Shown: positions 5,646-30,875 of the stretch, piece after piece
Layout of the letters: the number at the start of each line of letters is the position of its first letter
Position numbering within the stretch: position 1 is the stretch's first letter
IMG/VR virus record: IMGVR_UViG_3300008450_000199
Location: 1-34,398 of that record
DNA length: 34,398 nucleotides
From: a virus
Strand: one strand, 5' to 3'
The notes under the pieces: model-generated
Told to the model about the DNA's origin: nothing
The model's database searches: none
Seen by the model: only the letters and a program-made list of their open reading frames with translations
Made by a program: the position numbers and the translations under genes

Positions 5646-6507
5646 GGCCGGAGCCGCCATCGCACAGACTGCCGAGCGGCGAGGCGCACGGTTCGCCGCC
5701 GAGCTGGCGCGCGTGCTGCGCGTGGCCGAGCGGCGGCTGCGTCCGGTGCTGGAAGAGGCGCTGGCCGGGGACCGCACGGCGACCGTCCGGGCGGCCCGCG
5801 GCGTGGCGCTCCGCGCGCAGATTCGAGAGGCCCTGACGACGGCAGGCTTCGACGACCTCGTGCGCGAGGCCAGCATCGAGGCGGTCGAGGCTATGAGCGC
5901 GCAGGTCATGGAATCGCGGCTCGCGCAGGGGGTTGCGAAGCTGGTGCGCCCCAATGCGCAGCGGCTGGCCGCACTGGCCGCGCTCGGCGAGGCCAATCTG
6001 CTCGGCGTGGCCGAGGATGCGGCGACGGCGCTGACCCGCGCGGTCAGCTTCTGGTCGTTTAGCGTGACGCCTGCCGAGACGATGATTGAGACGCTGGCGC
6101 AGGGGCTCGACAAGAGCCTTGCGGAGGCGCAGACGCTGTTCGACACGCAGGTGAGCATCTACGGGCGGCAGGTCGAGGCCATCGGCTCAGAGCGCCTCCC
6201 AGACGATCAGGCGTTCCTCTATACGGGGCCTGTGGACGGCAAGACCCGCGACTGGTGCCTTGAGCGCGTCGGCAAGGTCTACACCCGCGCGGAGATTGAA
6301 GCGATGGACAACGGCCAGCTGCCAAATCCGTTCCTCACCGGCGGTGGCTACAACTGTCGGCACAGCTTCCTCGCGGTATCGTCGCGGGAGCTGCGCGACC
6401 TGGTGGGCACGGGCCAGCGGGCGCCGGGCTTCACAGAGGAACTGGACATGGCCCGAGCGCAGCGGGCGCAGGCACGGCGCGCCGACCGGGCACGGAGGGC
6501 GGCATAA
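5626..6507 (+). CDS. MuF-like minor head protein, 293 aa
   Basis: The N-terminal 190 residues are alanine- and arginine-rich helices. The C-terminal third carries the Mu gpF-type signature: GPVDGKTRDWCLERVGKVYT near residue 205, then NPFLTGGGYNCRHSF near residues 236-250, with the paired Cys and His residues typical of the family. Such proteins join the portal vertex or are injected with DNA. The context of portal before and scaffold and capsid after agrees. The ATG at 5626 overlaps the portal gene by 20 nt. The basic C-terminal tail (RAQARRADRARRAA) may bind DNA. Confidence 0.88.
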   Translation: MATTPSEAGAAIAQTAERRGARFAAELARVLRVAERRLRPVLEEALAGDRTATVRAARGVALRAQIREALTTAGFDDLVREASIEAVEAMSAQVMESRLAQGVAKLVRPNAQRLAALAALGEANLLGVAEDAATALTRAVSFWSFSVTPAETMIETLAQGLDKSLAEAQTLFDTQVSIYGRQVEAIGSERLPDDQAFLYTGPVDGKTRDWCLERVGKVYTRAEIEAMDNGQLPNPFLTGGGYNCRHSFLAVSSRELRDLVGTGQRAPGFTEELDMARAQRAQARRADRARRAA

Positions 6508-6794
6508 TGGGCGTGCTCGTACGCAATCGCGTGGGCGACTTGGCCAGCAATGTGCGCACGACGACAGCAGACATGAAAGACCTTGGCCTGCTGGCGCGAG
6601 AACGGATTCTTGCGCGCACCGCTCTTGGAAAAGACTTCAAAGGAAACGCATTTCAGCCGCTGAGCCAAAGTTATCTGCAGCAGCGCTCGAAGCAGGGCCT
6701 TCGCCGTGCGCGCACATCACTTGAGCTGTCAGGTGAAATGCTTCGCGGTATTCAGGTAATCGCAGAGGGCCGCACCGTGCGGTTGACTTTTTAA
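6507..6794 (+). CDS. gpG/gp10-like virion morphogenesis protein, N-terminal portion, 95 aa
   Basis: The ATG at 6507 overlaps the previous stop. The sequence (DLGLLARERILARTALGKDF, then RARTSLELSGEMLRGIQVI) matches the usual first half of phage virion-morphogenesis (Mu gpG-like) or HK97 gp10-like neck proteins: helix, S.YL..+ motif, then a strand after L..SG.ml. The reading stops at TAA right after a beta strand (RTVRLTF), and the rest of the fold seems to continue in the next gene, which starts at 6794. The region is less GC-rich than its neighbours. It may be a naturally split gene or carry a loss-of-stop variant in relatives. Confidence 0.65.
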   Translation: MGVLVRNRVGDLASNVRTTTADMKDLGLLARERILARTALGKDFKGNAFQPLSQSYLQQRSKQGLRRARTSLELSGEMLRGIQVIAEGRTVRLTF

Positions 6795-7009
6795 TGGGAC
6801 GGCGCAAGGGCTCAGGTCGTCCATTGACAATGCTGCAGCGGTCACGAGCTATTCCTCCAGCCGAAAAGGCTGCGTTCCACAACGTCACAGGCGCTGGTCG
6901 GTCGCAAGTGAAGCGAGAGTTTTTCTCGTTGTCTGAAGCAGACGCAGATGCCCTGGTGGAGCGTCTTGACGAGCGCCTTGACGAGCGCCTGCGTAAACGG
7001 TCGCAGTAA
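6794..7009 (+). CDS. Possible C-terminal half of the split gpG-like protein, 71 aa
   Basis: ATG at 6794 overlaps the previous TAA (TAATG), so translation is coupled. The segment AFHNVTGAGRSQVKREFFSLS resembles the H..G....RpflGls loop that normally sits in the second half of gpG-like neck proteins, followed by a C-terminal helix with three DERL units. As a separate 71-aa polypeptide it would have to associate with the product of 6507-6794. A basic N-terminus (MGRRKGSGRP) is also present. It could instead be an independent small head protein. Confidence 0.55.
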   Translation: MGRRKGSGRPLTMLQRSRAIPPAEKAAFHNVTGAGRSQVKREFFSLSEADADALVERLDERLDERLRKRSQ

Positions 7010-7033
7010 CCCTACCGTGGAGATGAGAGGACT

Positions 7034-7780
7034 ATGGCTGACCCAATCGTGATTGAAGTGGATGAGCAGGGCAACATCGGCACGCTGCCCGAGCCCGTGC
7101 AGGCTTTCGTGAACAAGGCCATCAACGAGGCTTTCAAACGTGGCGCGCAGAAGGTCGAGCGCGAGATGTCGAGCCGCGCCATCGACCCGGCAGAGCGTGA
7201 GCGCCTGCTGCAGGCGCAGGCCGACGCGAACCTCCTGCGCGAGGAAATCGCCACGCGCGACAAGAACTTTGAGGAAGCGGCTCGCCTGCGCGAGGAACGC
7301 TTCCAGCGAGAACTGGACCAGCGAGAACAGACGCTGAAGTCCAAAGAGACCGAGATCGGGCGTCGTGATGCCCGGTTGCGGGGAATGCTCGGGGCCGAGA
7401 TTCGCGCCGCCGCCGTCGCTGCCGGTGCGCGTGAGGAAAGCCTGCCTGAGCTGCAAAAGCTCCTCGGAGCGGACCTTGACCTCGATGAGCACCTCGAGCC
7501 GTTCGTGAAGGGCGAGGGCAACGCGCCCAAGCTCGACAAGGACGGCAAGCCGGTCAGCATCGAGGGGCTAGTGCGTGAGTATCTGGCGTCCCATCCTCAC
7601 CACCTGCGCGGCGGGCAGAGTCAGTCTGGCCGTGCGCAGGGCGGTGCGTCGATTGGGCGTTCGGTGGCCGCACCGAGCCCTGCCGATGAGGCAGTGGAGC
7701 GGCTGGCGGCAGACCCGTCCCTGCGGAACCTGACGGCGGCAGTGCGCAATGTGCGCCTGCGCGCGACAGGCACGCGGTGA
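7034..7780 (+). CDS. Capsid scaffolding protein, 248 aa
   Basis: ATG at 7034 has a GAGAGGA site. Residues 30-125 are a long, highly charged coiled coil (AERERLLQAQADANLLREEI, REERFQRELDQREQTLKSKE). A helical region and a linker rich in S, G and Q follow. The position right before the major capsid gene and the coiled-coil composition are characteristic of scaffold proteins, which template procapsid assembly. No protease motif is seen here or nearby, so the scaffold may leave intact or be removed by another route. Assignment rests on context and composition. Confidence 0.78.
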   Translation: MADPIVIEVDEQGNIGTLPEPVQAFVNKAINEAFKRGAQKVEREMSSRAIDPAERERLLQAQADANLLREEIATRDKNFEEAARLREERFQRELDQREQTLKSKETEIGRRDARLRGMLGAEIRAAAVAAGAREESLPELQKLLGADLDLDEHLEPFVKGEGNAPKLDKDGKPVSIEGLVREYLASHPHHLRGGQSQSGRAQGGASIGRSVAAPSPADEAVERLAADPSLRNLTAAVRNVRLRATGTR

Positions 7781-7803
7781 CATTTCCACACGGAGTGTAG
7801 ACC

Positions 7804-8946
7804 ATGGCCTTTACCGGGCTGAGTTCCAACGACCTGTTCACGGCGTCTCTGGTCCAGGAGGACGTGTCGCGGCTGATTGCGACCCTGTCTCCCAAGGAGA
7901 CCGCGCTGCTGAACTTCCTCGGCGACAGCGACGTCTTCGCCACCTCGACCAAGCATGAGTTCGTCGAGGACTTCATGCTGCCGAACTACATCGTGGCTTC
8001 GACCGCGATCAACTCGGCCACCGCCGCCACGGCGTTCCAGGTGAACGGCCTCGGCGAAGCGCTGACGGTCGGCACCATCCTCGAGAACGAGACGCAGACC
8101 GAAATCATGCAGGTCACGTCGATTGTCGGGCCGAACAGCATCGTGGCCAGCCGTGCCTACGGCGGCGGCGCGGTGGGCTCGCTGGCGGCGGGCGGGCAGC
8201 TCTACGTGCGCGCCATGGCGGGCATCGAGGGTGACGACCACGACGGACGCCACACCCGGCGGCTCGGCGTGCGCAAGGCCAACACGCTTGGCTTGTTCCA
8301 CATGCCGGTGGCAGCCTCGGGCACCGAGATGTCGCTCAACCTCTACGGCAACGACAGCTACGACGCTGCCGTGGCGAAGGGCGTGGTGGACATGCTCCAC
8401 CAGCTCGAGAAGGAAGTCGTGCGCGGCGTGCTGAACAGCACCAACTCGCTCGGCTCGGCCAGCCAGACCCGCACCATGCAGGGCCTGCGCAACTGGATCA
8501 CGACCATCAACAGCACGGTCGTGGCCTCCAGCTTCTCGGCCAACCCGCACCTCTACATCGGGAACGTCTGGGAGCAGATTTACTCCCAGGGCGGCAGCCC
8601 CGACACGGAGACGTGGGCCATCGTCGCGGGCAGCTCGTTCTTCCGCGACATCTCGAACCTGAACGACACGAAGGTCGAGGACAGCAACCAGAGCGAGCAG
8701 TTCAAGCGCGTCATCCGCACCTACGAGGGACCGCTGGGCCGCGCCCAGGTCATCCTCTCGCGCGTGCTGGCCGCCAACGAACTGCTGCTCATCCCGCGCG
8801 AGCGCGTCAAGGTCGTGCCGCTGCAGGGCCGCTCGTTCTCCTATGAGGAGATGGGCAAGACCGGCGACAACAAGAAGGGCCTGCTGACGGGTGAATACAC
8901 CATCGAGGTGCATCACGCCAACGCCATGGCCCGTCTGCGCGTCTGA
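7804..8946 (+). CDS. Major capsid protein, SU10/DUF5309-like, 380 aa
   Basis: ATG at 7804 with a GGAG site. The sequence pattern of LSPKETALLNFLGD, then HEFVEDFMLPNYIVAST, LGVRKANTLGLFHMPVAAS, a central MLHQLEKEVVRGVLN helix, and the end KGLLTGEYTIEVHHANAMA is that of SU10-type (DUF5309-like) HK97-fold capsid proteins. About 415 copies plus portal form the head shell in typical T=7 heads, a general family property. No N-terminal delta domain is evident, agreeing with a separate scaffold gene. A strong terminator follows immediately, which would raise the relative level of this transcript. Confidence 0.9.
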   Translation: MAFTGLSSNDLFTASLVQEDVSRLIATLSPKETALLNFLGDSDVFATSTKHEFVEDFMLPNYIVASTAINSATAATAFQVNGLGEALTVGTILENETQTEIMQVTSIVGPNSIVASRAYGGGAVGSLAAGGQLYVRAMAGIEGDDHDGRHTRRLGVRKANTLGLFHMPVAASGTEMSLNLYGNDSYDAAVAKGVVDMLHQLEKEVVRGVLNSTNSLGSASQTRTMQGLRNWITTINSTVVASSFSANPHLYIGNVWEQIYSQGGSPDTETWAIVAGSSFFRDISNLNDTKVEDSNQSEQFKRVIRTYEGPLGRAQVILSRVLAANELLLIPRERVKVVPLQGRSFSYEEMGKTGDNKKGLLTGEYTIEVHHANAMARLRV

Positions 8947-9036: not shown

Positions 9037-9207
9037 ATGGACCCCATCATCGAAGAAATCTGCCGTGTGCGACACCCGCAAGACATCCGGCCCGCCTCCC
9101 TGCGGCGCTGGCAGGACTATCTGCGCCTGACGGTGCAGCCGCAACTCGACCAGCTGCAGGCCGCATCGACCAAGAAGGCCGCCAAGCGGGAGGCCGCCGA
9201 TGCGTAG
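9037..9207 (+). CDS. Small helical protein, 56 aa, between capsid and glycosyltransferase genes
   Basis: I chose the ATG at 9037 because of the excellent AAGGAGAGGA just upstream. The protein is two amphipathic helices, with RHPQDIRPASLRRWQDYLRL in the centre, ending in a lysine/alanine-rich tail. It overlaps the next gene by 8 nt and starts a new transcription segment after the terminator. Small proteins at this position are sometimes head-tail or decoration proteins, but it is too short and helical for a typical decoration fold. Function unknown. Confidence 0.75.
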   Translation: MDPIIEEICRVRHPQDIRPASLRRWQDYLRLTVQPQLDQLQAASTKKAAKREAADA

Positions 9208-12133
9208 TCCAATGACCTGGGCGTTTCACATCGACAGCGTCGAGTTCACGCCTGCCGTCATCGCTGGCACGGCGTCGCTGGGCGGCTCCGAGTCGGCCTG
9301 TCTCGGGCTGGCGCGGGCGCTGCAGGCGCGAGGGCACCGCGTTCACATCTTCACCACGCAGCTGCACCCGGACGCCCCGAGCAAGGACGCATGGGGCGTG
9401 GCGTGGCACCGCACCGCCGACCTTGACGCGCTCTCGCGGTTCTGTCACTGGGACGTGTTCGTCGCGCTCCGCATGCCGCACATCTTCAACCAGCGCATCC
9501 CGGCGACCGTCCGCGTGTTGTGGAATCAGGACTTGCTCACCGGCGAGGCCGCCAAGACGCAGACGATGGCGTTCGGGTGGGCCTATGACGTGGTGGCCTA
9601 CGTGAGCCACTACCACCGCAAGCAGTGGGAAGGCGTCGCGCCTGAGCTGGCTTCCATCGGATGGGTCTGCCGGAACGGCTTCGACCCGTCGTATGTGCCG
9701 ACCGACGTCACGCGCCATCCCAAGCGGGTCATCCACATCACGCGGCCCGAGCGCGGCCTGCGGCCCCTGCTGGCGATGTGGCCCGAGGTGCGGCGACAGG
9801 TGCCGGACGCCGAGCTGCACCTCTGCCGCTACAACAGCATGTATGACGCGCAGGGGTGGGGCCGGGTGTGCGCGGCCTACGACGAGCAGGTAGCCGCCGT
9901 CAACGCGCAGGTGGGTGGGATTACCTGGCTGGGCGAGCTCGGCAAGCCCGAACTCTACCGGGCCATCGCAGGCGCGGCGGTCATGTGGTATCCCGGCGTG
10001 GCTGACTTCGCCGAGACCTCCTGTGTCGCCGCCATCGAGGCGCAGGCGTGCGGCACGCCGTTTGTGGGCAGCTACAAGGGCGCACTGCCGGAGACGGTGC
10101 CGCACGGCACGCTCATTCAGGGCGATGCCGACACGCCCGAGTATCAGGCCGAGAGCATCAAGGCCGTGGTGGGCATCCTGACCGGCGCCAATCTGTCGCA
10201 ACAGGTGCGCGACGGACTTGTGCATGTGCAGGGCTACACGTTCGACCAGGTGGCGCAGAGCTGGGAGCACATGGCGGTCGGTCAGATGGCGGACCGGCGA
10301 ATCCGCGAGCCGCAGGCCCTGCTGCAGCAGCTGCTGCACGAGGACGACCACTGCGCCGCGCAGGTGCTGGCGCGTGAACTGGGCGACACCGCGACCGCCG
10401 AGTGGTGCCAGTATGTCATCGACGGCAAGGACCAAAGCGCCGACGACTACGGGGCGCACGCGCTGCCGCCGCTGGTCGAGATGCAGCACAGCCCACGCAT
10501 TCGCAGCGTGGTGGAGCAGCTGCAGGGCTGCACCAGCGTGCTGGACGTTGCCTGTGGCAACGGGGCGTTCGCACTGGCACTGGCGCAGGCCGACCCGTCG
10601 CGGCGCGTGGTGGGCGTCGATTACAGCGCCGCCAACATCGCCGTGGCCCGCGAGACGGCGACGGCGCTCGGCGTGGCCGACCGCTGCACGTTCGTGCAGG
10701 GCGCGGTCTATAGCTACGTGACCCACACGGCCCACGAGACGCTGCTGGATGAGCTGGCGGCGCTCGGGCCGTTCGATGGGGTCTTTGTTGGCGAGTTCTG
10801 CGAACACATCGCGGGGGTGGATGGCTTCCTCTCCGCTGTCGCCGCCCGCGCCCAGACGGGCGCTCGCATGGTGTGCACCATGCCGTCGGGGCCGTTCGTG
10901 GAACTCGCCAGCAAAGACATCCCGATGCGCAAGGGCCATGTGCATCACTTCCGCGCGCCTGACCTCGAACAGGTGTGGGGCACGCAAGACCGGCTCAACG
11001 TCGCGTTCCTCGACATCGGCGTCACGCCGCGCGGCCAGCGGGTCGGGCACTGGATCGTCTCGTGCCAGCTCAACGGACGTCCCTTCCGACCGCGTGACTT
11101 CGCGGCGGCGATTCGTCGGGCGCGGCCCAAGCGGGCGCTGTCGGTCGGCATCCTCGCCGGCGAGACCATCGACCTGTGGCGCTGCCTCGAGTCAGTCTGG
11201 CCGGTAGCGGACGAGATTATCCTGGCCGACACCGGCGTCGGGACGGCAGCGCTGCAGCCGTTCCTCGACGCCTTCCCGCGCACCCGGGTAGTGGAGGTCG
11301 GGGCGGTGGGCGACCTGCGCGGCGGTTTCGCGGAGGCCCGGAACGCCACACTGGCAGCGGCGACCGGCGCGTGGTTCCTGTGGATTGACAGCGACGAGCG
11401 GCTCGTGGATGCGCACGCGCTGCACCACTACCTCGAGGGCGGCATCTTCACGGGCTACGGCGTCAAGCAGAACCATCTGCAGCTCGACATGGGCGTCACG
11501 TTCGACACCCCGATTCGCGTCTTCCGGCGCCAGCCAGACATCGAGTTCTACGGCTGCGTCCACGAACAGCCGCAGCAGCGCGACTGCAACGGCGACATCC
11601 TGCCCGCGCTCCAGCTGAACGACGTGCAGATTGCGCACACCGGCTACCTGACCGAGCGGGTCCGACGCGACAAGGCGCTGCGGCGCAACCTGCCGCTGCT
11701 CATCCGCGACGGCGAGGTGTTCCCGGACCGCCGCTTGCACCAGCTGCTGGTGCTGCGTGACCATCTCAACCTCGCGCAGTGGGACAGCGAGGAGCGCGGC
11801 GGCCTGAGTGACATCGGGCGCAACCACCTGCGCAAGGTCGTCGAGCTGTTCGAGACGCACTTTGCCGACCCGTCCGACAAGTATCACCCGCTGGCCTATC
11901 CCTTCTACGAGGCGGCGGTAAAGCAGGTGAGCGGGGCGCTGGAAGTGGAGGTGGCGTTTGCGGCACAGGTGCAGGGCCTGAAGGGGCGCGCCAAGCCCGA
12001 GCGCATCTGGGTGCGGCACGCTGGGCAGATTCCCGTCCTGCTGCGCAATCTGCAGGCGCAGTGGCTGAAGCTGTTCCTGCCGCCGCCGCCGATTGACGTC
12101 GAACCAATGTCTGGCACGGAGGCTGAGCGATGA
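9200..12133 (+). CDS. Three-domain glycosyltransferase (GT4) - methyltransferase - glycosyltransferase (GT2), 977 aa
   Basis: Residues 1-360 look like a GT-B fold, GT4-type enzyme: SLGGSESACLGLARAL near residue 26, and the EX7E pattern ETSCVAAIE at 272-280 followed by ACGTPFVG. Residues 420-635 look like a class I SAM-dependent methyltransferase: motif I VLDVACGNGAFAL at about 447, GVDYS at about 472. Residues 645-870 look like a GT-A fold, GT2-type enzyme: LSVGILAGETIDLWRCLESV at 647, ARNATLAAATGAWFLWIDSD ending at 732 with the DSD metal motif. The last 100 residues are helical, ending in a PPPP segment. The combination predicts building and methylating a short glycan. Position between capsid and neck genes suggests virion proteins as acceptors; DNA or cell-surface sugars are alternatives. 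ATG 9200 follows GGGAGG; ATG 9212 is a second option. Confidence 0.9.
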   Translation: MRSPMTWAFHIDSVEFTPAVIAGTASLGGSESACLGLARALQARGHRVHIFTTQLHPDAPSKDAWGVAWHRTADLDALSRFCHWDVFVALRMPHIFNQRIPATVRVLWNQDLLTGEAAKTQTMAFGWAYDVVAYVSHYHRKQWEGVAPELASIGWVCRNGFDPSYVPTDVTRHPKRVIHITRPERGLRPLLAMWPEVRRQVPDAELHLCRYNSMYDAQGWGRVCAAYDEQVAAVNAQVGGITWLGELGKPELYRAIAGAAVMWYPGVADFAETSCVAAIEAQACGTPFVGSYKGALPETVPHGTLIQGDADTPEYQAESIKAVVGILTGANLSQQVRDGLVHVQGYTFDQVAQSWEHMAVGQMADRRIREPQALLQQLLHEDDHCAAQVLARELGDTATAEWCQYVIDGKDQSADDYGAHALPPLVEMQHSPRIRSVVEQLQGCTSVLDVACGNGAFALALAQADPSRRVVGVDYSAANIAVARETATALGVADRCTFVQGAVYSYVTHTAHETLLDELAALGPFDGVFVGEFCEHIAGVDGFLSAVAARAQTGARMVCTMPSGPFVELASKDIPMRKGHVHHFRAPDLEQVWGTQDRLNVAFLDIGVTPRGQRVGHWIVSCQLNGRPFRPRDFAAAIRRARPKRALSVGILAGETIDLWRCLESVWPVADEIILADTGVGTAALQPFLDAFPRTRVVEVGAVGDLRGGFAEARNATLAAATGAWFLWIDSDERLVDAHALHHYLEGGIFTGYGVKQNHLQLDMGVTFDTPIRVFRRQPDIEFYGCVHEQPQQRDCNGDILPALQLNDVQIAHTGYLTERVRRDKALRRNLPLLIRDGEVFPDRRLHQLLVLRDHLNLAQWDSEERGGLSDIGRNHLRKVVELFETHFADPSDKYHPLAYPFYEAAVKQVSGALEVEVAFAAQVQGLKGRAKPERIWVRHAGQIPVLLRNLQAQWLKLFLPPPPIDVEPMSGTEAER

Positions 12134-13002
12134 GCGTGTGGTTCCCGAACGATGTGGTCTATGACAGCGACCTCGAGGCCTACGAGCAGACCATCCTGAC
12201 GCAGTTCGGCCAGACCGACTGGCAGACCAAGCGCGTCAAGGCGCTCGAGGACTGGGCCTTCCCGGCGCTGGCGAAAGCGGGGTATGTGCCCGAGCGCCTG
12301 CGCACCCGTCACGCCCCGGCCAAGGTGTGGGGCCTGACCGGCGGCGTCTACACCGACTATACGGCAGCGGCCACGACGCCCAACGCCGCGACCATCCCGC
12401 TGGCCACGGTGTTTGCGAACCACGCGACGGACCATCTGCTGATTGGCTCGCCGCTGCAGTTCCGGGGCCTGTCCATCCGCATGCTCGACCAGGTCAGCAA
12501 CACCAACGGCACGCTGACCGTGCAGGTCTGGGCCGATTCGTGGGAGCAGGTCAACCCGCTGAACGAGACGCAGTTCCTGAACAACAAGCCGTTCAGCCGA
12601 GGCGGCGACGTGCGATGGGAGATGCCTGGCAACTGGGTGACGCGCACCATCAACGGCTCCGCGCCGCTCTATTGGGCGCGCATCACGCTGACCTCGACGC
12701 CTGCCGGAGCCTTTGCGGGGCAGATCGGGTGCATCCGTGGCACGGCGCTGACCGGCCCGGTGACGCTGCGCACGCTCGGCCTGATCTTCCGTGAGGCGCA
12801 GACGCTGCAGGGAGGGCCGTGGGAAGACAAGGCCAACACGTATTTGGCCGACGCCGAGCGCGCGCTCGAGGGCGCGATGCTGCTGGTGAGCCGGGAGTTC
12901 GACACTCTGACCGTGGATGACCAGATTGACCCGTCCGAGGCCGCACAGACCACGGGCGAGGTCACGGGCCAGCCCACGGGCTACAGCTGGGAGCGTGGCT
13001 GA
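12130..13002 (+). CDS. Head-tail connector/adaptor-like protein with inserted beta domain, 290 aa
   Basis: ATG overlaps the previous stop (ATGAGCG). The first 65 residues are helical (DLEAYEQTILTQFG, KRVKALEDWAFPALA). Residues 75-215 are rich in beta strands with a sandwich-like pattern (PLQFRGLSIRML, LTVQVWADSWEQV). The final part returns to helices (YLADAERALEGAMLLVSREF). Helical adaptors at the neck with an inserted beta domain fit the position between capsid and tail genes. I do not recognise a named family, so the role is positional. Confidence 0.6.
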   Translation: MSVWFPNDVVYDSDLEAYEQTILTQFGQTDWQTKRVKALEDWAFPALAKAGYVPERLRTRHAPAKVWGLTGGVYTDYTAAATTPNAATIPLATVFANHATDHLLIGSPLQFRGLSIRMLDQVSNTNGTLTVQVWADSWEQVNPLNETQFLNNKPFSRGGDVRWEMPGNWVTRTINGSAPLYWARITLTSTPAGAFAGQIGCIRGTALTGPVTLRTLGLIFREAQTLQGGPWEDKANTYLADAERALEGAMLLVSREFDTLTVDDQIDPSEAAQTTGEVTGQPTGYSWERG

Positions 13003-14545: not shown

Positions 14546-14959
14546 ATGCCGAGACAACTGCAAACCGATGGGGCCACATTCGAGGTGCGAGAGGACGCGC
14601 TGGACGACCTCCAGCACGCGGACCCGGATGTGGTCTACATCTGCCGGGAACTGACGACGACCAAGTGGCGCGAGCTGCAGCGCCAGCACACGCGCAAGGT
14701 GCTGAACAAGGCGACCAAGCAGATGGAGAACGTGACCGACAACGAGGCGTTCTCTGACGCGATTGTGGACTATGTGCTGATGGACTGGCGCGGAATTGTC
14801 GAGCGCGGCGGGGCTCCGGCCCCCTGCACGACCGAGAACAAGCTGCGGCTCGACGGCGTGGTCAAAGCGGCGCTTGTCGGCAAGGCGGGGCTCTCGCAGA
14901 TTGTCGAGGGCGCGGCCATCAAGGAGACCTCGTTTCGGCCAACTCCGGACGTGGGCTGA
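14546..14959 (+). CDS. Tail assembly chaperone, upstream (gpG-like) frame, 137 aa
   Basis: ATG at 14546 follows AAAGG. The small, charged protein with RELTTTKWRELQRQHTRKVL and a helical body sits between the tail tube and tape-measure genes, the standard place of tail assembly chaperones. It ends at TGA 14957-14959. A second frame, open across the stop, continues to 15281 with no good start codon of its own, so the longer gpGT-like product is probably made by ribosomal frameshifting near 14933. Chaperones of this kind coat the tape measure before tube assembly. Confidence 0.75.
   Translation: MPRQLQTDGATFEVREDALDDLQHADPDVVYICRELTTTKWRELQRQHTRKVLNKATKQMENVTDNEAFSDAIVDYVLMDWRGIVERGGAPAPCTTENKLRLDGVVKAALVGKAGLSQIVEGAAIKETSFRPTPDVG
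14933..14938 (+). promoter_or_regulatory. Candidate +1 programmed frameshift site (TTT CGG)
   Basis: The upstream frame reads TCG TTT CGG. A +1 slip of tRNA-Phe from TTT to TTC moves the ribosome into the frame that continues to 15281. The frame geometry demands +1 or -2; none of the in-phase heptamers near the stop supports a -2 slip as well. The rare-type CGG codon in the A site would favour a pause. Confidence 0.5.
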
Positions 14960-15281
14960 GTTCTGGGCCGACTCGGTCGCCACGGGCCACGTCGTCTGCT
15001 GTCAGCTGGCCGACGATGAGCTGGTGGCGTCCGAGCCGGAGCAATACGACTGCCGGTCGTGTGTGCTCATGGAGCACATGACCAGCTTGGACGCCGACAA
15101 CCAGCAGGCCTGGGACATCTACCGGGCCTGCTGTAATCGGTTCACGCAAGACCTCGGGGCCGGGTCGGTCGTGCTCGACCGGCTGACGCAAGATATGGAG
15201 CCCGAGGCCTTCGTCGATGTCACGGACCGGCTGCGGCTGGTCTACGATATCCTCGCCCCCCGAAAGGAGCCGACCCGCTGA
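14934..15281 (+). CDS. Tail assembly chaperone, downstream (gpT-like) extension
   Basis: This frame is open from inside the upstream chaperone gene to TGA at 15279-15281 and encodes about 115 residues from TTC 14934, including WAEFWADSVATGHVVCCQLA, a CRSC pair, DIYRACCNRF and a charged C-terminus. Its only upstream start is a poor TTG at 14796, so it is most likely expressed as a fusion after the +1 slip. It overlaps the tape-measure ATG by one base. Four cysteines in two pairs (CC, CRSC, CC) are unusual for this role and might bind metal. Confidence 0.68.
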   Translation, partial: FGQLRTWAEFWADSVATGHVVCCQLADDELVASEPEQYDCRSCVLMEHMTSLDADNQQAWDIYRACCNRFTQDLGAGSVVLDRLTQDMEPEAFVDVTDRLRLVYDILAPRKEPTR

Positions 15282-19586: not shown

Positions 19587-20648
19587 ATGGCCGCATCGAC
19601 CATCACACGCAGCGCGCTGACCAACGGCACGACGCCGTGGAGCGCCACCACGATTAACAGCGCCGTCTACGACAAGATTGACGAGCTGTTCGGCGGTGCG
19701 GGCACCTACGCCACGCTCGAGCTCGGCGGGGCGTTGAAAATCAACGGCGCGCTGACGCAGCTGTCGAACGACGGCGGGGCGCTGGGCACGTCGTCGCTCG
19801 GGTGGAGTGACCTGTTCCTCGCGTCAGGCGCGGTCATCAACTTCAACAACGGCGACGTCACGCTGACGCACAGCACGAACACGTTGACCTTCGCCGGGGC
19901 CAGCAGCGGCTATGTGTTCGACGATCATCTGAAGTTCACCGTAGGCAAGTATCTGGATTGGGGAACCACGGTCGGCTCGTTTGGGGGCCGCTTCGGGCGC
20001 TATATCACCGGGTCGTTCCTGATCGGCGTTCCCGGCACCTCGGCCTCAGAATCCTTTCTTGTCGTGGATTCTGCTGGTGCCACCATTGCGGAGTTTCGCG
20101 GGAACAAGCTTGCATCCTTTGGCGGCAACATCGCCATCGGCAAAGGCGCTCGTTTTTACCTCGACGGCACGGCGGGGACGGGCAATACCTACCTTGAAGA
20201 GTACAGCGATGACGAAATCAGACTGACGATTGGCGGATCGGCGCACTCCGCATGGAACGCGACCGGTCAGTATATCTATTACAACCCGCCGACGACCGCA
20301 TCAGCAGCAAACGCCTACATCGCGCAGGCCGACTACATCAGGCGGTCTACATCCTCCATCCGCTACAAGCACGACATCGCCACGCTCGACGGCTCCGACG
20401 CGCTGGCGGCAGTCATGGCCATGCGTCCGGTGACGTATCGCGGCAAGACGGACGCGGATCAGCGGCGGTTTGTCGGCTTCATCGCGGAAGAAGTGCAGCA
20501 GTGGGCGCCGCTGCTCTGCACCTACGACGACGGCGGGGAGAGCGGCACGCCCAACTACGTCACCTATGACCGCGTGACAGCCTATCTGGTGGCCGTAGTG
20601 CAGCAGCAGCAGAGCGAGATCAGCGCGCTGAAGGCGCGCATTGACTGA
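19587..20648 (+). CDS. Tail fibre or spike with C-terminal S74 chaperone domain, 353 aa
   Basis: ATG at 19587. The body is beta-rich with short repeats of the type ALGTSSLGWSDLFLASGAVI and INFNNGDVTLTHSTNTLTF, as in trimeric fibres. Residues 250-353 form an intramolecular chaperone (peptidase S74): STSSIRYKHDIATLDGSDAL with the Ser-Lys site, then MRPVTYRGKTDADQRRFVGF, IAEEV and a terminal coiled coil. This domain trimerises the fibre and then cuts itself off. Residues 105-250 have a lower GC content than the ends, suggesting recombination of receptor-binding modules. It is the only obvious receptor-binding candidate. Confidence 0.88.
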   Translation: MAASTITRSALTNGTTPWSATTINSAVYDKIDELFGGAGTYATLELGGALKINGALTQLSNDGGALGTSSLGWSDLFLASGAVINFNNGDVTLTHSTNTLTFAGASSGYVFDDHLKFTVGKYLDWGTTVGSFGGRFGRYITGSFLIGVPGTSASESFLVVDSAGATIAEFRGNKLASFGGNIAIGKGARFYLDGTAGTGNTYLEEYSDDEIRLTIGGSAHSAWNATGQYIYYNPPTTASAANAYIAQADYIRRSTSSIRYKHDIATLDGSDALAAVMAMRPVTYRGKTDADQRRFVGFIAEEVQQWAPLLCTYDDGGESGTPNYVTYDRVTAYLVAVVQQQQSEISALKARID

Positions 20649-21196: not shown

Positions 21197-21400
21197 ATGC
21201 TCACGGAAGCCACTGTTGTGCTGGGACTGTCTGCCGTCGCGGGCATCGCGTGGCTCGTGCGCATCGAGGGCAAAGTGCTGACCAACGAGCGCGAGCTGTC
21301 GCGCATTGCCACCGAAGGCGAGCGCAAGTTGATGCAGATTGGCGACGACATCAAGTATCTCCGTGACCGCATCGACCGGGTGCTGGAGACGCGGGTGTGA
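21197..21400 (+). CDS. Holin-like protein with one membrane helix and coiled coil, 67 aa
   Basis: ATG at 21197 follows TAGGAGATG. Residues 3-21 (TEATVVLGLSAVAGIAWLV) form one membrane helix near the N-terminus, followed by a charged coiled coil (TEGERKLMQIGDDIKYLRDR). It overlaps the muramidase gene by 4 nt. This layout recalls lysis accessory or holin-type proteins that deliver the endolysin to the wall, but one-helix topology plus coiled coil is also seen in XhlA-like proteins. Context makes a lysis role likely. Confidence 0.65.
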   Translation: MLTEATVVLGLSAVAGIAWLVRIEGKVLTNERELSRIATEGERKLMQIGDDIKYLRDRIDRVLETRV

Positions 21401-21894
21401 GCATCGACGCCCTGATTGACGACATCCTGGTCCGCGAGGGCGGGTTCGTCGATCATCCGGCAGACCGGGGCGGGCCGACCCACTACGGCATCACGCAGGC
21501 GACTCTGAGCCGCTGGCGCCAGCAGCCCGTGAGCGTGCAGGACGTGCAGGCGCTGACGCTGGAGGAAGCCCGCGCCATCTACCGGCACGACTACATCGAG
21601 CGCCCCGGCTTCCTGCGCATTCCCGATGAGCGGCTGCGTGCGCTTTTGGTGGACTGGGGCGTGCACAGTGGGCCGCAGACGGCCATCAGGGCCTTGCAGC
21701 GGGTGCTCGGCGTGCGGCAGGCGGGCGTGCTCGGGCCGCAGACGCTGGCGGCGCTGGAGACACGACCTGCGGCTGACGTCTATGCGTCGGTGCTGCGCTG
21801 GCGCGGCTTGTGGATGGCCGACATCCTCCAGCGCGACTCGAAGCAGCGCGCCTTTGCCGCCGGATGGCTGCGGCGGCTGATGGAGTTCGTGTGA
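21397..21894 (+). CDS. Endolysin, GH108 N-acetylmuramidase with PG-binding domain, 165 aa
   Basis: GTG start at 21397, overlapping the holin-like gene. The N-terminal domain has DDILVREGGFVDHPADRGGP with the catalytic glutamate of the EGG motif, then THYGITQATL, as in glycoside hydrolase family 108. The C-terminal third (LLVDWGVHSGPQTAIRALQR, then GVLGPQTLAAL) is the peptidoglycan-binding type 3 region usual for this enzyme. It cleaves the MurNAc-GlcNAc bond. No signal peptide is seen, so release depends on a holin. Length of 165 aa is normal, and this enzyme type points to a Gram-negative host. Confidence 0.92.
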   Translation: MSIDALIDDILVREGGFVDHPADRGGPTHYGITQATLSRWRQQPVSVQDVQALTLEEARAIYRHDYIERPGFLRIPDERLRALLVDWGVHSGPQTAIRALQRVLGVRQAGVLGPQTLAALETRPAADVYASVLRWRGLWMADILQRDSKQRAFAAGWLRRLMEFV

Positions 21895-24758: not shown

Positions 24759-24964
24759 TGGGCCTGCTGTGGCACCTGCTGTATTACCCGATGGCTGTGG
24801 TATGGTTGGCCCTGTGCGCTGTCCACACGGCGCTGGCGTGGCCGTTGCGAGGCTTGGAGTGGGTGATGAGCCATCTACTGCCGGGGCTGCTGTTCGTGGC
24901 GTGGCGCGCCGACGGCAAGGAGGGGATGCCCGATGACATCGACGACACCGACGACGACGCGTGA
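24758..24964 (+). CDS. Small membrane protein with acidic tail, 68 aa
   Basis: ATG at 24758 overlaps the preceding stop. Residues 4-27 (LWHLLYYPMAVVWLALCAVH) and 36-50 (WVMSHLLPGLLFVAW) are hydrophobic, giving one or two membrane passes. The C-terminus is acidic (DDIDDTDDDA). The gene overlaps the start of the nucleotide kinase gene by 32 nt. Family unknown; could serve in lysis or membrane remodelling. Confidence 0.66.
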   Translation: MGLLWHLLYYPMAVVWLALCAVHTALAWPLRGLEWVMSHLLPGLLFVAWRADGKEGMPDDIDDTDDDA

Positions 24965-25532
24965 CCTGCCGTGGCCGACGCTGGACCGCGTGTTTCTCGT
25001 GGGGCTCGGCCATCAGGCACGGCAGGGCAAAGACCTCGCGGCTGACGCCATCGTCGCGGCTTTCGGGGCCGACGCGCGGCGGTTCGCGTTTGCCGATGCC
25101 GTGCGGGCGCTGGCCCGCGTCGAGTATCGGATGACCGCGAAGGACGCGCCGCTGCTCCAGCAGATTGGCGTGGGCCGACGGAACATCGACCCGGACATCT
25201 GGGTGCGCACGGTGGCGTGGGCCATGGCCGACTGGATGGCCGACCGAAACGGGCGTCCTGGCGTGGCGGTCATTCCCGACGTCCGGTTCCCCAATGAGGC
25301 GCGGTTCATCCGGCGGCATCAGGGCCTGCTGCTGCGCGTCGTGCGCTACGGGGCTGACGGCCAGCGGTTCGTGGCGTCCGACCGTCCCGCGACCCACATC
25401 AGCGAGACGGCGCTGACCGCCGGGGACTTCACGGCGACCCTCGACAATCTGCAGGGCCGTCCCGAGCTGCTCCAGCAGCGGGCCGTGCAACTGGTGCAGA
25501 CACACTTCTGGGCATGGACCGAAAGCCTGTAG
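24933..25532 (+). CDS. dNMP kinase-like protein, 199 aa
   Basis: ATG at 24933 has AAGGAGGGG upstream. Near residue 24 the P-loop GLGHQARQGKDLAADAI ends in GKD as in the T4 gp1 type of deoxynucleoside monophosphate kinases. A later VIPDVRFPNEARFI fits the D.R...E substrate site, and TEIS-like THISETAL follows near the lid. These enzymes convert dNMPs to dNDPs, including modified ones. The neighbouring DUF4406-like protein also suggests nucleotide metabolism. Whether this is tied to base modification is unknown. Confidence 0.76.
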   Translation: MTSTTPTTTRDLPWPTLDRVFLVGLGHQARQGKDLAADAIVAAFGADARRFAFADAVRALARVEYRMTAKDAPLLQQIGVGRRNIDPDIWVRTVAWAMADWMADRNGRPGVAVIPDVRFPNEARFIRRHQGLLLRVVRYGADGQRFVASDRPATHISETALTAGDFTATLDNLQGRPELLQQRAVQLVQTHFWAWTESL

Positions 25533-29090: not shown

Positions 29091-29604
29091 TGAAATTGGC
29101 AACCAGCTCGAGCGGCTGGCGCTGGCCGGGTTCGTCGCTCCGAAGGACGACAAGCTGGCGGCGATGGTGGAGGAGTGGGGCAAGGCCCTGACGCGGTTCG
29201 AGGTGGGACAGATTGAGCAGGGCATCAACTGGCTAATCCATCACCGTCGGGAACGCTGGTGGCCGACGGTGGGCGAGCTGCTCGACGCCATCCGGATGAC
29301 GACCGTCCAGAAGGAGGAGCCGAGCCGCAAGTGCCGGACGTGTGACGGGTCGAAGTGGATGGAGGCGGTGCCGTTCCAGTCGTTCGGGCAGGTCTACACG
29401 GCGGTGCGACGGTGCCCGGACTGCGGGACGCCGCCGCCGCCCTACGCCATCCCGCCAGGTAGTCGGCAGCCCCTGACGGCGGCGCAGCACCGGACCTACC
29501 TCAACACGGCCAAGACGCCGGTGGAGCTGACGTTCGACCAGTTCATCGGGCAGCTCCGCGCGATGGGGGCCGAGCAGCTGGCCAGCCGGGTGGTGCGGCC
29601 ATGA
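29077..29604 (+). CDS. Helicase loader-like protein with zinc ribbon, 175 aa
   Basis: ATG at 29077 follows GGAGGAG and overlaps the initiator gene by 14 nt. The N-terminal part (RFEVGQIEQGINWLIHHRRE, then RWWPTVGELLDAIR near residue 65) recalls the G39P-type helicase loader/inhibitor pattern ending in PT..E. A zinc ribbon follows: CRTCDGSKW near residue 86 and CPDCG near 114. The C-terminus is helical (LTFDQFIGQLRAMGAEQLAS). It likely brings host DnaB to the initiator-bound origin, since the phage has no helicase of its own. Confidence 0.68.
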   Translation: MSSSSEIGNQLERLALAGFVAPKDDKLAAMVEEWGKALTRFEVGQIEQGINWLIHHRRERWWPTVGELLDAIRMTTVQKEEPSRKCRTCDGSKWMEAVPFQSFGQVYTAVRRCPDCGTPPPPYAIPPGSRQPLTAAQHRTYLNTAKTPVELTFDQFIGQLRAMGAEQLASRVVRP

Positions 29605-30875
29605 CGCGCACGGTTCGCGTGGCTGACCTGTTCTGTGGGGCCGGTGGCAGCAGCACCGGACTCCTGCAAGCCGCTCAGGCGCTCGGCCTGACGGTAGACT
29701 TGACGGCAGTCAACCATTGGACGACGGCGGTCGAAACCCACGCGACGAATCATCCGCAGGCGCGGCATGTGTGCGCGTCACTGGACAGTCTCGACCCGCG
29801 CCAAGTGACCGGCGGCAAACTGGACCTGCTGTGGGCCTCGCCGGAGTGCACGCATCACAGCACGGCGCGCGGCGGCAAGCCCATCCATGACCAGTCCCGC
29901 GCGACGGCGTGGTGCGTCACGCGATGGGCTGAAGCCCTGCGCCCCAAGTGGGTCATCGTCGAAAACGTGCCAGAGTTTCAGACATGGGGCCCGCTGGGCG
30001 CAGACCAGCGCCCATTGGCCTCGCGGAAAGGCCAGACGTTTGCCGCGTGGCTCCAGACGCTGCGCGCCTTGGGTTACACGGTCGAGACCCGGGTCTTGAA
30101 TGCCGCCGATTACGGCGCGGCGACCTCTCGGCGGAGATTGTTTGTCATGGCGCGGCTCGACGGTGGCGCGCGTGGGCGGGGGCCGCTGACCTGGCCGGAG
30201 CGCACCCATGCGCCACACGGTGACGCGACACTGTTCGGCACGTTGGCCCCGTGGCGCGCCGCACGGGACATCATCGACTGGCAGGACAGCGGCACCTCCA
30301 TCTTTCGGCGTTCGCGCCCGCTCGCAGCCAAGACGCTGCAGCGCATCGCGGCAGGCGCGCGGAAGTTCTGGTCGGTGGACCTGCAGCCGTTTTTGGTGGC
30401 GATGGAACACGGCGGGCGTGAGCTGCCCATCGACAAGCCGATGCCGACCATCACGACGGCGAAGGGGGGCGCGTTTGGACTGGTGCAGCCGTTCCTCCTC
30501 GGGCAGCAATCAGGCGCGACCGCACGGCCTGTGACGGAGCCAGTGCCGACCGTCTCCACCAGTGGCGCGATTGCACTGGTCGAGCCGTTCTTGGTCAGCT
30601 TCTACGGCAACGGCGGGCCGCAGTCGGTGGGCGAACCGCTGCGCACCATCACCACCAAAGATCGGTTTGGCCTGGTCGAGCCGTCTGCGCTGGACATTCG
30701 CTTCAGGATGCTCAGGCCGCATGAGCTGGCGTCGGCAATGGGATTCCCGACGGCGTATCAGTTCGCCGGGACGCGGACGGACGCGGTGAAGCAGATCGGC
30801 AACGCGGTGGAAGTGCATCAGGCCGCGGCCTTGTGGACAGCAGCATTGCGGCAGACAGTGGGAGGTGTGGCATGA
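29601..30875 (+). CDS. DNA (cytosine-5) methyltransferase, 424 aa
   Basis: ATG at 29601 overlaps the preceding stop. Motif I DLFCGAGGSSTG near residue 9, motif IV ASPECTHHS near 78 with the catalytic cysteine in a PEC rather than PPC setting, motif VI VENVPEF near 117, motif VIII GAATSRRRLFV near 170, and motifs IX-X MLRPHELASAMGFP and QIGNAV near the end are all visible. The target-recognition region holds three repeats of PTITT...LV.PFL type (around residues 280, 310 and 340). No restriction enzyme is adjacent, so it probably protects phage DNA from host restriction. Confidence 0.92.
   Translation: MTRTVRVADLFCGAGGSSTGLLQAAQALGLTVDLTAVNHWTTAVETHATNHPQARHVCASLDSLDPRQVTGGKLDLLWASPECTHHSTARGGKPIHDQSRATAWCVTRWAEALRPKWVIVENVPEFQTWGPLGADQRPLASRKGQTFAAWLQTLRALGYTVETRVLNAADYGAATSRRRLFVMARLDGGARGRGPLTWPERTHAPHGDATLFGTLAPWRAARDIIDWQDSGTSIFRRSRPLAAKTLQRIAAGARKFWSVDLQPFLVAMEHGGRELPIDKPMPTITTAKGGAFGLVQPFLLGQQSGATARPVTEPVPTVSTSGAIALVEPFLVSFYGNGGPQSVGEPLRTITTKDRFGLVEPSALDIRFRMLRPHELASAMGFPTAYQFAGTRTDAVKQIGNAVEVHQAAALWTAALRQTVGGVA

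Follow-up and report, generated by a model that had tools for sequence, protein, structure and literature searches.

A virus record of 34,398 bases, analysed here as a whole and referred to as the window, carries directly after the gene for its major head protein, with one small ORF between them, a long ORF that combines two glycosyltransferase domains with a methyltransferase domain. This raises the question of what such an enzyme modifies: the virion, the phage DNA or the surface of the host. The original prediction, made from the nucleotide sequence, had placed GT4, methyltransferase and GT2 signatures in one 977-aa chain beside the capsid gene and had proposed a virion target.

A constrained gene encoding three predicted catalytic domains

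The ORF starts with ATG on the plus strand and encodes 977 amino acids in one frame without internal stops (Table 1). Its product matches the Pfam models Glyco_trans_1_4 at residues 182-307 (38.4 bits, cut-off 27), Methyltransf_25 at residues 447-505 (45 bits, cut-off 27) and Glycos_transf_2 (PF00535) at residues 659-733, the last being marginal for a single sequence at 23.6 bits versus a cut-off of 23.3. The predicted motifs were located as E272-X7-E280, V447-LDVACGNGAF and D730-S-D732. Modeling of the full-length fusion with AlphaFold2, using an alignment of 38 sequences, gave a defined domain arrangement with a mean pLDDT of 90.8 and a pTM of 0.88. Whole-chain Foldseek matches included 7qsg, MshA, AviGT4, SdgB, AtmM, ThuS and SunS; these come without query positions and were assigned to domains by fold and length. 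GmaR, SunS, ThuS, AtmM and several GT4 enzymes were also placed on the fusion by sequence profile, which does give positions.

The N-terminal domain has the features of the GT4 family (GT-B), namely a group-1 glycosyltransferase Pfam match above cut-off, the EX7E motif and the folds of MshA and AviGT4; SdgB, also among its matches, has a structure solved with peptides. The central domain shows motif I (DxACGxG) and the Rossmann-like fold of class I SAM methyltransferases, and matches AtmM (6uvq), a D-glucose O-methyltransferase, at 3e-9 in the fold search. The third domain is assigned to the GT2 family (GT-A) by a PF00535 match marginally above cut-off, the invariant D730 and D732, and the folds of ThuS and SunS. 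Structure prediction, which had been proposed as a check, thus returned the three anticipated folds, and Pfam, motifs, AlphaFold2 and Foldseek agree on their presence in one chain. Based on the structural model, the helical region that follows the GT2 domain is a possible acceptor-binding part.

The alignment comprises relatives 23-96% identical to the window fusion. E280, C452, G455, D474, D671, D730, D732, E733, H788 and E789 do not vary across the 38 sequences, and E272 is kept in at least 90% of the rows, so the catalytic residues on which the original prediction depended are present and conserved. Of five regions compared, the helical linker is the least identical to most relatives. In the three catalytic domains dN/dS is 0.12-0.29 against relatives L004, L036 and L007, and rises to as much as 0.74 when L008 and L041 are used instead. 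The substitution patterns and the invariant catalytic residues mark the ORF as a real gene under constraint and no high-GC artefact. An antisense ORF of 667 aa (9047-11050) that runs across this region looks like such an artefact.

Table 1. Coordinates of the fusion gene, its predicted domains and motifs, and the adjoining genes in the window.
Feature	Coordinates	Strand	Evidence
Candidate acceptor: PHROG 1328-type major capsid (head) protein	7804..8946	+	Match to phrog_1328 (major head protein) at 2.7e-35
Small conserved ORF, 56 aa, in gap between capsid gene and fusion	9037..9207	+	Sequence; homologues in 38 loci
GT4-methyltransferase-GT2 fusion protein, 977 aa	9200..12133	+	ORF, Pfam, motifs, alignment, AlphaFold2
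GT4 domain (GT-B fold), residues 1-360	9200..10279	+	Pfam; Foldseek 7qsg, MshA, AviGT4, SdgB
EX7E motif, residues 272-280	10013..10039	+	E280 in all 38 rows, E272 in at least 90%
Rapidly evolving helical linker, residues 361-430	10280..10489	+	AlphaFold2 helices; identity comparison
Class I SAM methyltransferase domain, about residues 431-639	10490..11116	+	Pfam; Foldseek AtmM
SAM-binding motif VLDVACGNGAF, residues 447-457	10538..10570	+	C452, G455 invariant (38 rows)
GT2 domain (GT-A fold), GmaR/SunS/ThuS-like, about residues 640-840	11117..11719	+	Profile, Foldseek
DSD metal-binding motif (WIDSDE), residues 730-732	11387..11395	+	D730, D732, E733 invariant (38 rows)
HEQP motif, residues 788-791	11561..11572	+	HE invariant (38 rows); His-Glu common to GmaR and SunS
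C-terminal helical region, residues 841-977	11720..12130	+	AlphaFold2 secondary structure
Next gene, structural-region protein	12130..13002	+	ATGA overlap with fusion stop; kept in the window's own clade

Similarity of the GT2 domain to polypeptide glycosyltransferases

Lipopolysaccharide enzymes exist within the same broad GT2 group as the C-terminal domain. When a profile of this part was compared with solved structures, a comparison that leaves lipopolysaccharide enzymes without structures outside it, the best matches were GmaR (1.3e-35, to a PDB chain consisting of the 204-aa GT domain only), SunS (3e-21) and ThuS (5.8e-21), the next class following at 1e-12. In Foldseek the GT2 part alone matched ThuS at 8.6e-17 and SunS/ThuS structures down to 3.5e-14, with the next class at 9.3e-8. 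The domain therefore belongs with GmaR and SunS/ThuS, enzymes that attach sugars directly to polypeptides. It falls outside the SunS peptide S-glycosyltransferase equivalog (TIGR04195), scoring 29.6 bits versus a cut-off of 350.

GmaR transfers GlcNAc onto the flagellin of Listeria, and glycocin enzymes of the SunS/ThuS kind use peptides as substrates (PMC9638930; PMC12457901). GmaR can be aligned over nearly the whole GT2 length, sharing the catalytic signatures DxDE, HEQ and H-GY..RN, and in both proteins helices follow the GT2 domain, those of GmaR being a TPR domain (PMC9638930). Unlike the fusion, GmaR consists of GT, TPR, linker and antirepressor domains with neither GT4 nor methyltransferase, and its acceptor is flagellin (PMC9638930). 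SunS and ThuS, which are peptide S/O-glycosyltransferases, gave the best fold matches to the GT2 part (TM 0.56-0.59 over about 275 columns), but they are stand-alone enzymes acting on small peptides.

Occurrence of the fusion and linkage to capsid genes

The same domain order, which the original prediction had suggested seeking in other phages, recurs in about a hundred distinct phages that are uncultured. Scanning viral and genome contigs yielded 99 clusters of fused ORFs at 95% identity; the candidate ranking favours full-length relatives, so that split versions may be under-counted. Even the most divergent members, at about 23% identity to the window protein, retain the catalytic residues. 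In 50,697 annotated phage records the whole fusion was found in none, using three queries spread over the family and requiring 80% query cover; Listeria matches among these records covered the GT2 part only and are probably GmaR-like host sequence. A cellular origin of the whole fusion was rejected, as only 2 of 299 genomes from one bacterial phylum carry it, both in phage-like surroundings with an upstream capsid gene.

The sole reversed arrangement seen, GT2-TPR-GT4, occurs in MW202524, a podovirus from Manatee Spring. Here, too, a multi-domain glycosyltransferase ORF lies a little 3' of the capsid gene, and methyltransferase genes come after it. It differs from the window in its opposite domain order, in having the methyltransferases as separate genes and in an identity of about 27% to the GT4 and GT2 parts.

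Among the 65 clusters whose upstream DNA spans at least 5 kb, 58 have a major capsid gene, called as PHROG 1328 or PHROG 1005 type with all upstream ORFs considered, on the same strand and no more than 4 kb upstream; the loci are related by descent, so these are not 65 independent events. It lies within 1 kb in 50 of the 86 clusters with at least 2 kb upstream, indicating that other genes often intervene, mainly in the 1005-type clade. Some of the remaining clusters have no recognised capsid gene, and three have one downstream on the opposite strand. The capsid type switches once on the fusion tree (FastTree, a quick method). This is consistent with long-standing retention and a single switch; shared descent predicts the same. 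In distant relatives (L064-L067, L079 and L080) capsid and scaffold were matched and most other structural genes of the window were not. The fusion is present in every near capsid relative whose sequence reaches far enough downstream. Lietuvens and phiRTG5, isolated phages of the same capsid family, have no glycosyltransferase annotated beside the capsid gene, which indicates that the capsid does not need the fusion.

Within the window, the fusion gene is overlapped at both ends, by the upstream small ORF (8 bases at the fusion start) and by the downstream gene, whose ATG lies at 12130. The small ORF has AAGGAGAGG a little 5' of its ATG and could encode a decoration or adaptor protein. Further downstream, two overlapping ORFs 5' of the tape measure gene (14546-14959, tail assembly chaperone, and 14796-15281) may represent a programmed frameshift. 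A tail fibre with an S74 chaperone domain (19587-20645) and a GH108 endolysin (21397-21891) were also recognised.

Candidate acceptors

A phage-encoded glycosyltransferase set linked to structural genes, as is characteristic of virion glycosylation, is thus present in this family. The linkage leaves the question which virion protein would be modified. An acceptor other than the capsid protein, such as the tail tube, a decoration protein, the fibre or the small ORF product, is considered unlikely. It would agree with the mycobacteriophages Che8, Corndog and Myrna, where glycans are reported on both capsid and tail-tube subunits (PMC12363180), and the small ORF, together with several head-tail genes, is also kept beside the fusion in the window's clade. 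However, it is the capsid gene that recurs as a neighbor over both fusion clades, whereas most other structural genes of the window are unmatched in distant relatives.

Surface polysaccharides are commonly made by GT4 and GT2 enzymes, and the fusion could accordingly change a glycan on the host surface, either O-antigen or capsule, during late infection or lysogeny and so exclude other phages. Genes of this kind are known in temperate phages (Markine-Goriaynoff, as given in a citing paper). Yet the gene sits among the head genes, right behind the capsid gene, overlaps a neighbor on each side and keeps its linkage over two capsid families, which makes a host target highly unlikely.

Glycosyltransferases that hypermodify phage DNA have been described (Pyle et al. 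2024, as cited in PMC12619734), and the window does encode a C5-cytosine methyltransferase (29601-30875) and a nucleotide-kinase-like gene (24933-25532). A sugar on a hypermodified base would nevertheless have a very slight probability. Among 18 records, many of them fragments, no thymidylate-synthase/hydroxymethylase (PF00303) homologue was detected with a control that was positive, and only 4 carried the C5-methyltransferase. A search of 18 records, again including many fragments, for Tet_JBP (PF12851) also gave no match, as did its positive control. Moreover, the fusion lies by the capsid gene, away from the DNA genes, and the solved relatives of its GT2 domain are polypeptide enzymes. The preference of the original prediction for a virion over a DNA target is therefore upheld by capsid adjacency over two capsid families, the polypeptide-type GT2 domain and the lack of a thymidylate-synthase-like homologue in these records. 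Finally, that the fusion is a non-specific accessory gene, present in a late operon by chance with no virion substrate, would accord with its absence beside the capsid gene in isolated phages of the same capsid family, but is barely credible given the long-term conservation of both catalytic residues and capsid linkage.

Proposed function

The presence of three domains in one chain, in about a hundred phages and usually just after the capsid gene, suggests that the enzyme probably builds a methylated sugar chain on the virion, a well-supported hypothesis. We consider it fairly likely that this phage enzyme, probably expressed late together with the head genes, glycosylates a virion protein, and most likely the major capsid protein encoded upstream. 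From linkage and analogy only, the capsid protein emerges as the most probable acceptor, namely because of its gene linkage, the polypeptide-acting relatives of the GT2 domain, the disfavored DNA target and the precedent of Corndog and Che8.

In Corndog, an O-methyltransferase and three glycosyltransferases are encoded between the portal and protease genes (PMC4351075). The loci of Corndog (gp35-gp38) and Che8 (gp108-gp110) resemble the fusion in encoding glycosyltransferases together with a methyltransferase, those of Corndog within the structural operon, and Che8 gp108 is itself a GT2-methyltransferase fusion. They differ in being several genes of other enzyme families (TylF-type methyltransferase, GT25), and the Che8 cluster lies near the right genome end. 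Homology with Che8 gp108-gp110 was rejected, since the best of four domain models gave a weak 7.5 bits, and the precedent is therefore one of analogy. The best reading by this analogy is that the fusion would be the same kind of system as these separate-gene loci, fused into one chain.

In such a system, the C-terminal GmaR/SunS-like GT2 domain would initiate by attaching a first sugar, taken from a host nucleotide sugar, to the side chains of Ser, Thr or Cys in the putative peptide acceptor. The N-terminal GT4 domain would add a further sugar, and the central SAM methyltransferase would O-methylate a sugar. The fusion would keep the three activities in equal amounts and near one another. By itself it sets no reaction order, and neither does the linear order of the domains, so the order given here is a presumed one; the short glycan and fixed reaction order of the original prediction are likewise conjecture. 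More tentatively, with doubt slightly outweighing confidence, the protein may be a self-contained capsid-glycan synthase, in which one chain attaches, extends and methylates a glycan of the major capsid protein, and which has been kept with the capsid gene through the divergence of two major-capsid lineages and has so far been seen complete on uncultured contigs only.

Some relatives encode additional enzymes nearby. In L076, a second GT4-methyltransferase ORF (5819-7672) and a GDP-mannose 4,6-dehydratase (7663-8691) lie between the capsid gene and the fusion, and in L079 a cytidylyltransferase-like gene (8084-8524), possibly for making a nucleotide-activated donor, lies a little way 3' of the fusion. 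These neighbors suggest a supply of special sugars. No such genes were seen among the window ORFs scanned, and the donors there are therefore probably host nucleotide sugars. In L070, the stretch 573-2815, 5' of the capsid region, contains two radical SAM genes with a methyltransferase-like gene between them.

Glycosylation of phage virions has been proven in few systems, all of them mycobacteriophages in the literature found. Given about a hundred distinct capsid-linked fusions, capsids coated with sugars, probably methylated ones, may be widespread among uncultured phages. The fusion provides a sequence marker for such phages, and as a single-chain enzyme it can be tested directly on the neighboring capsid protein.
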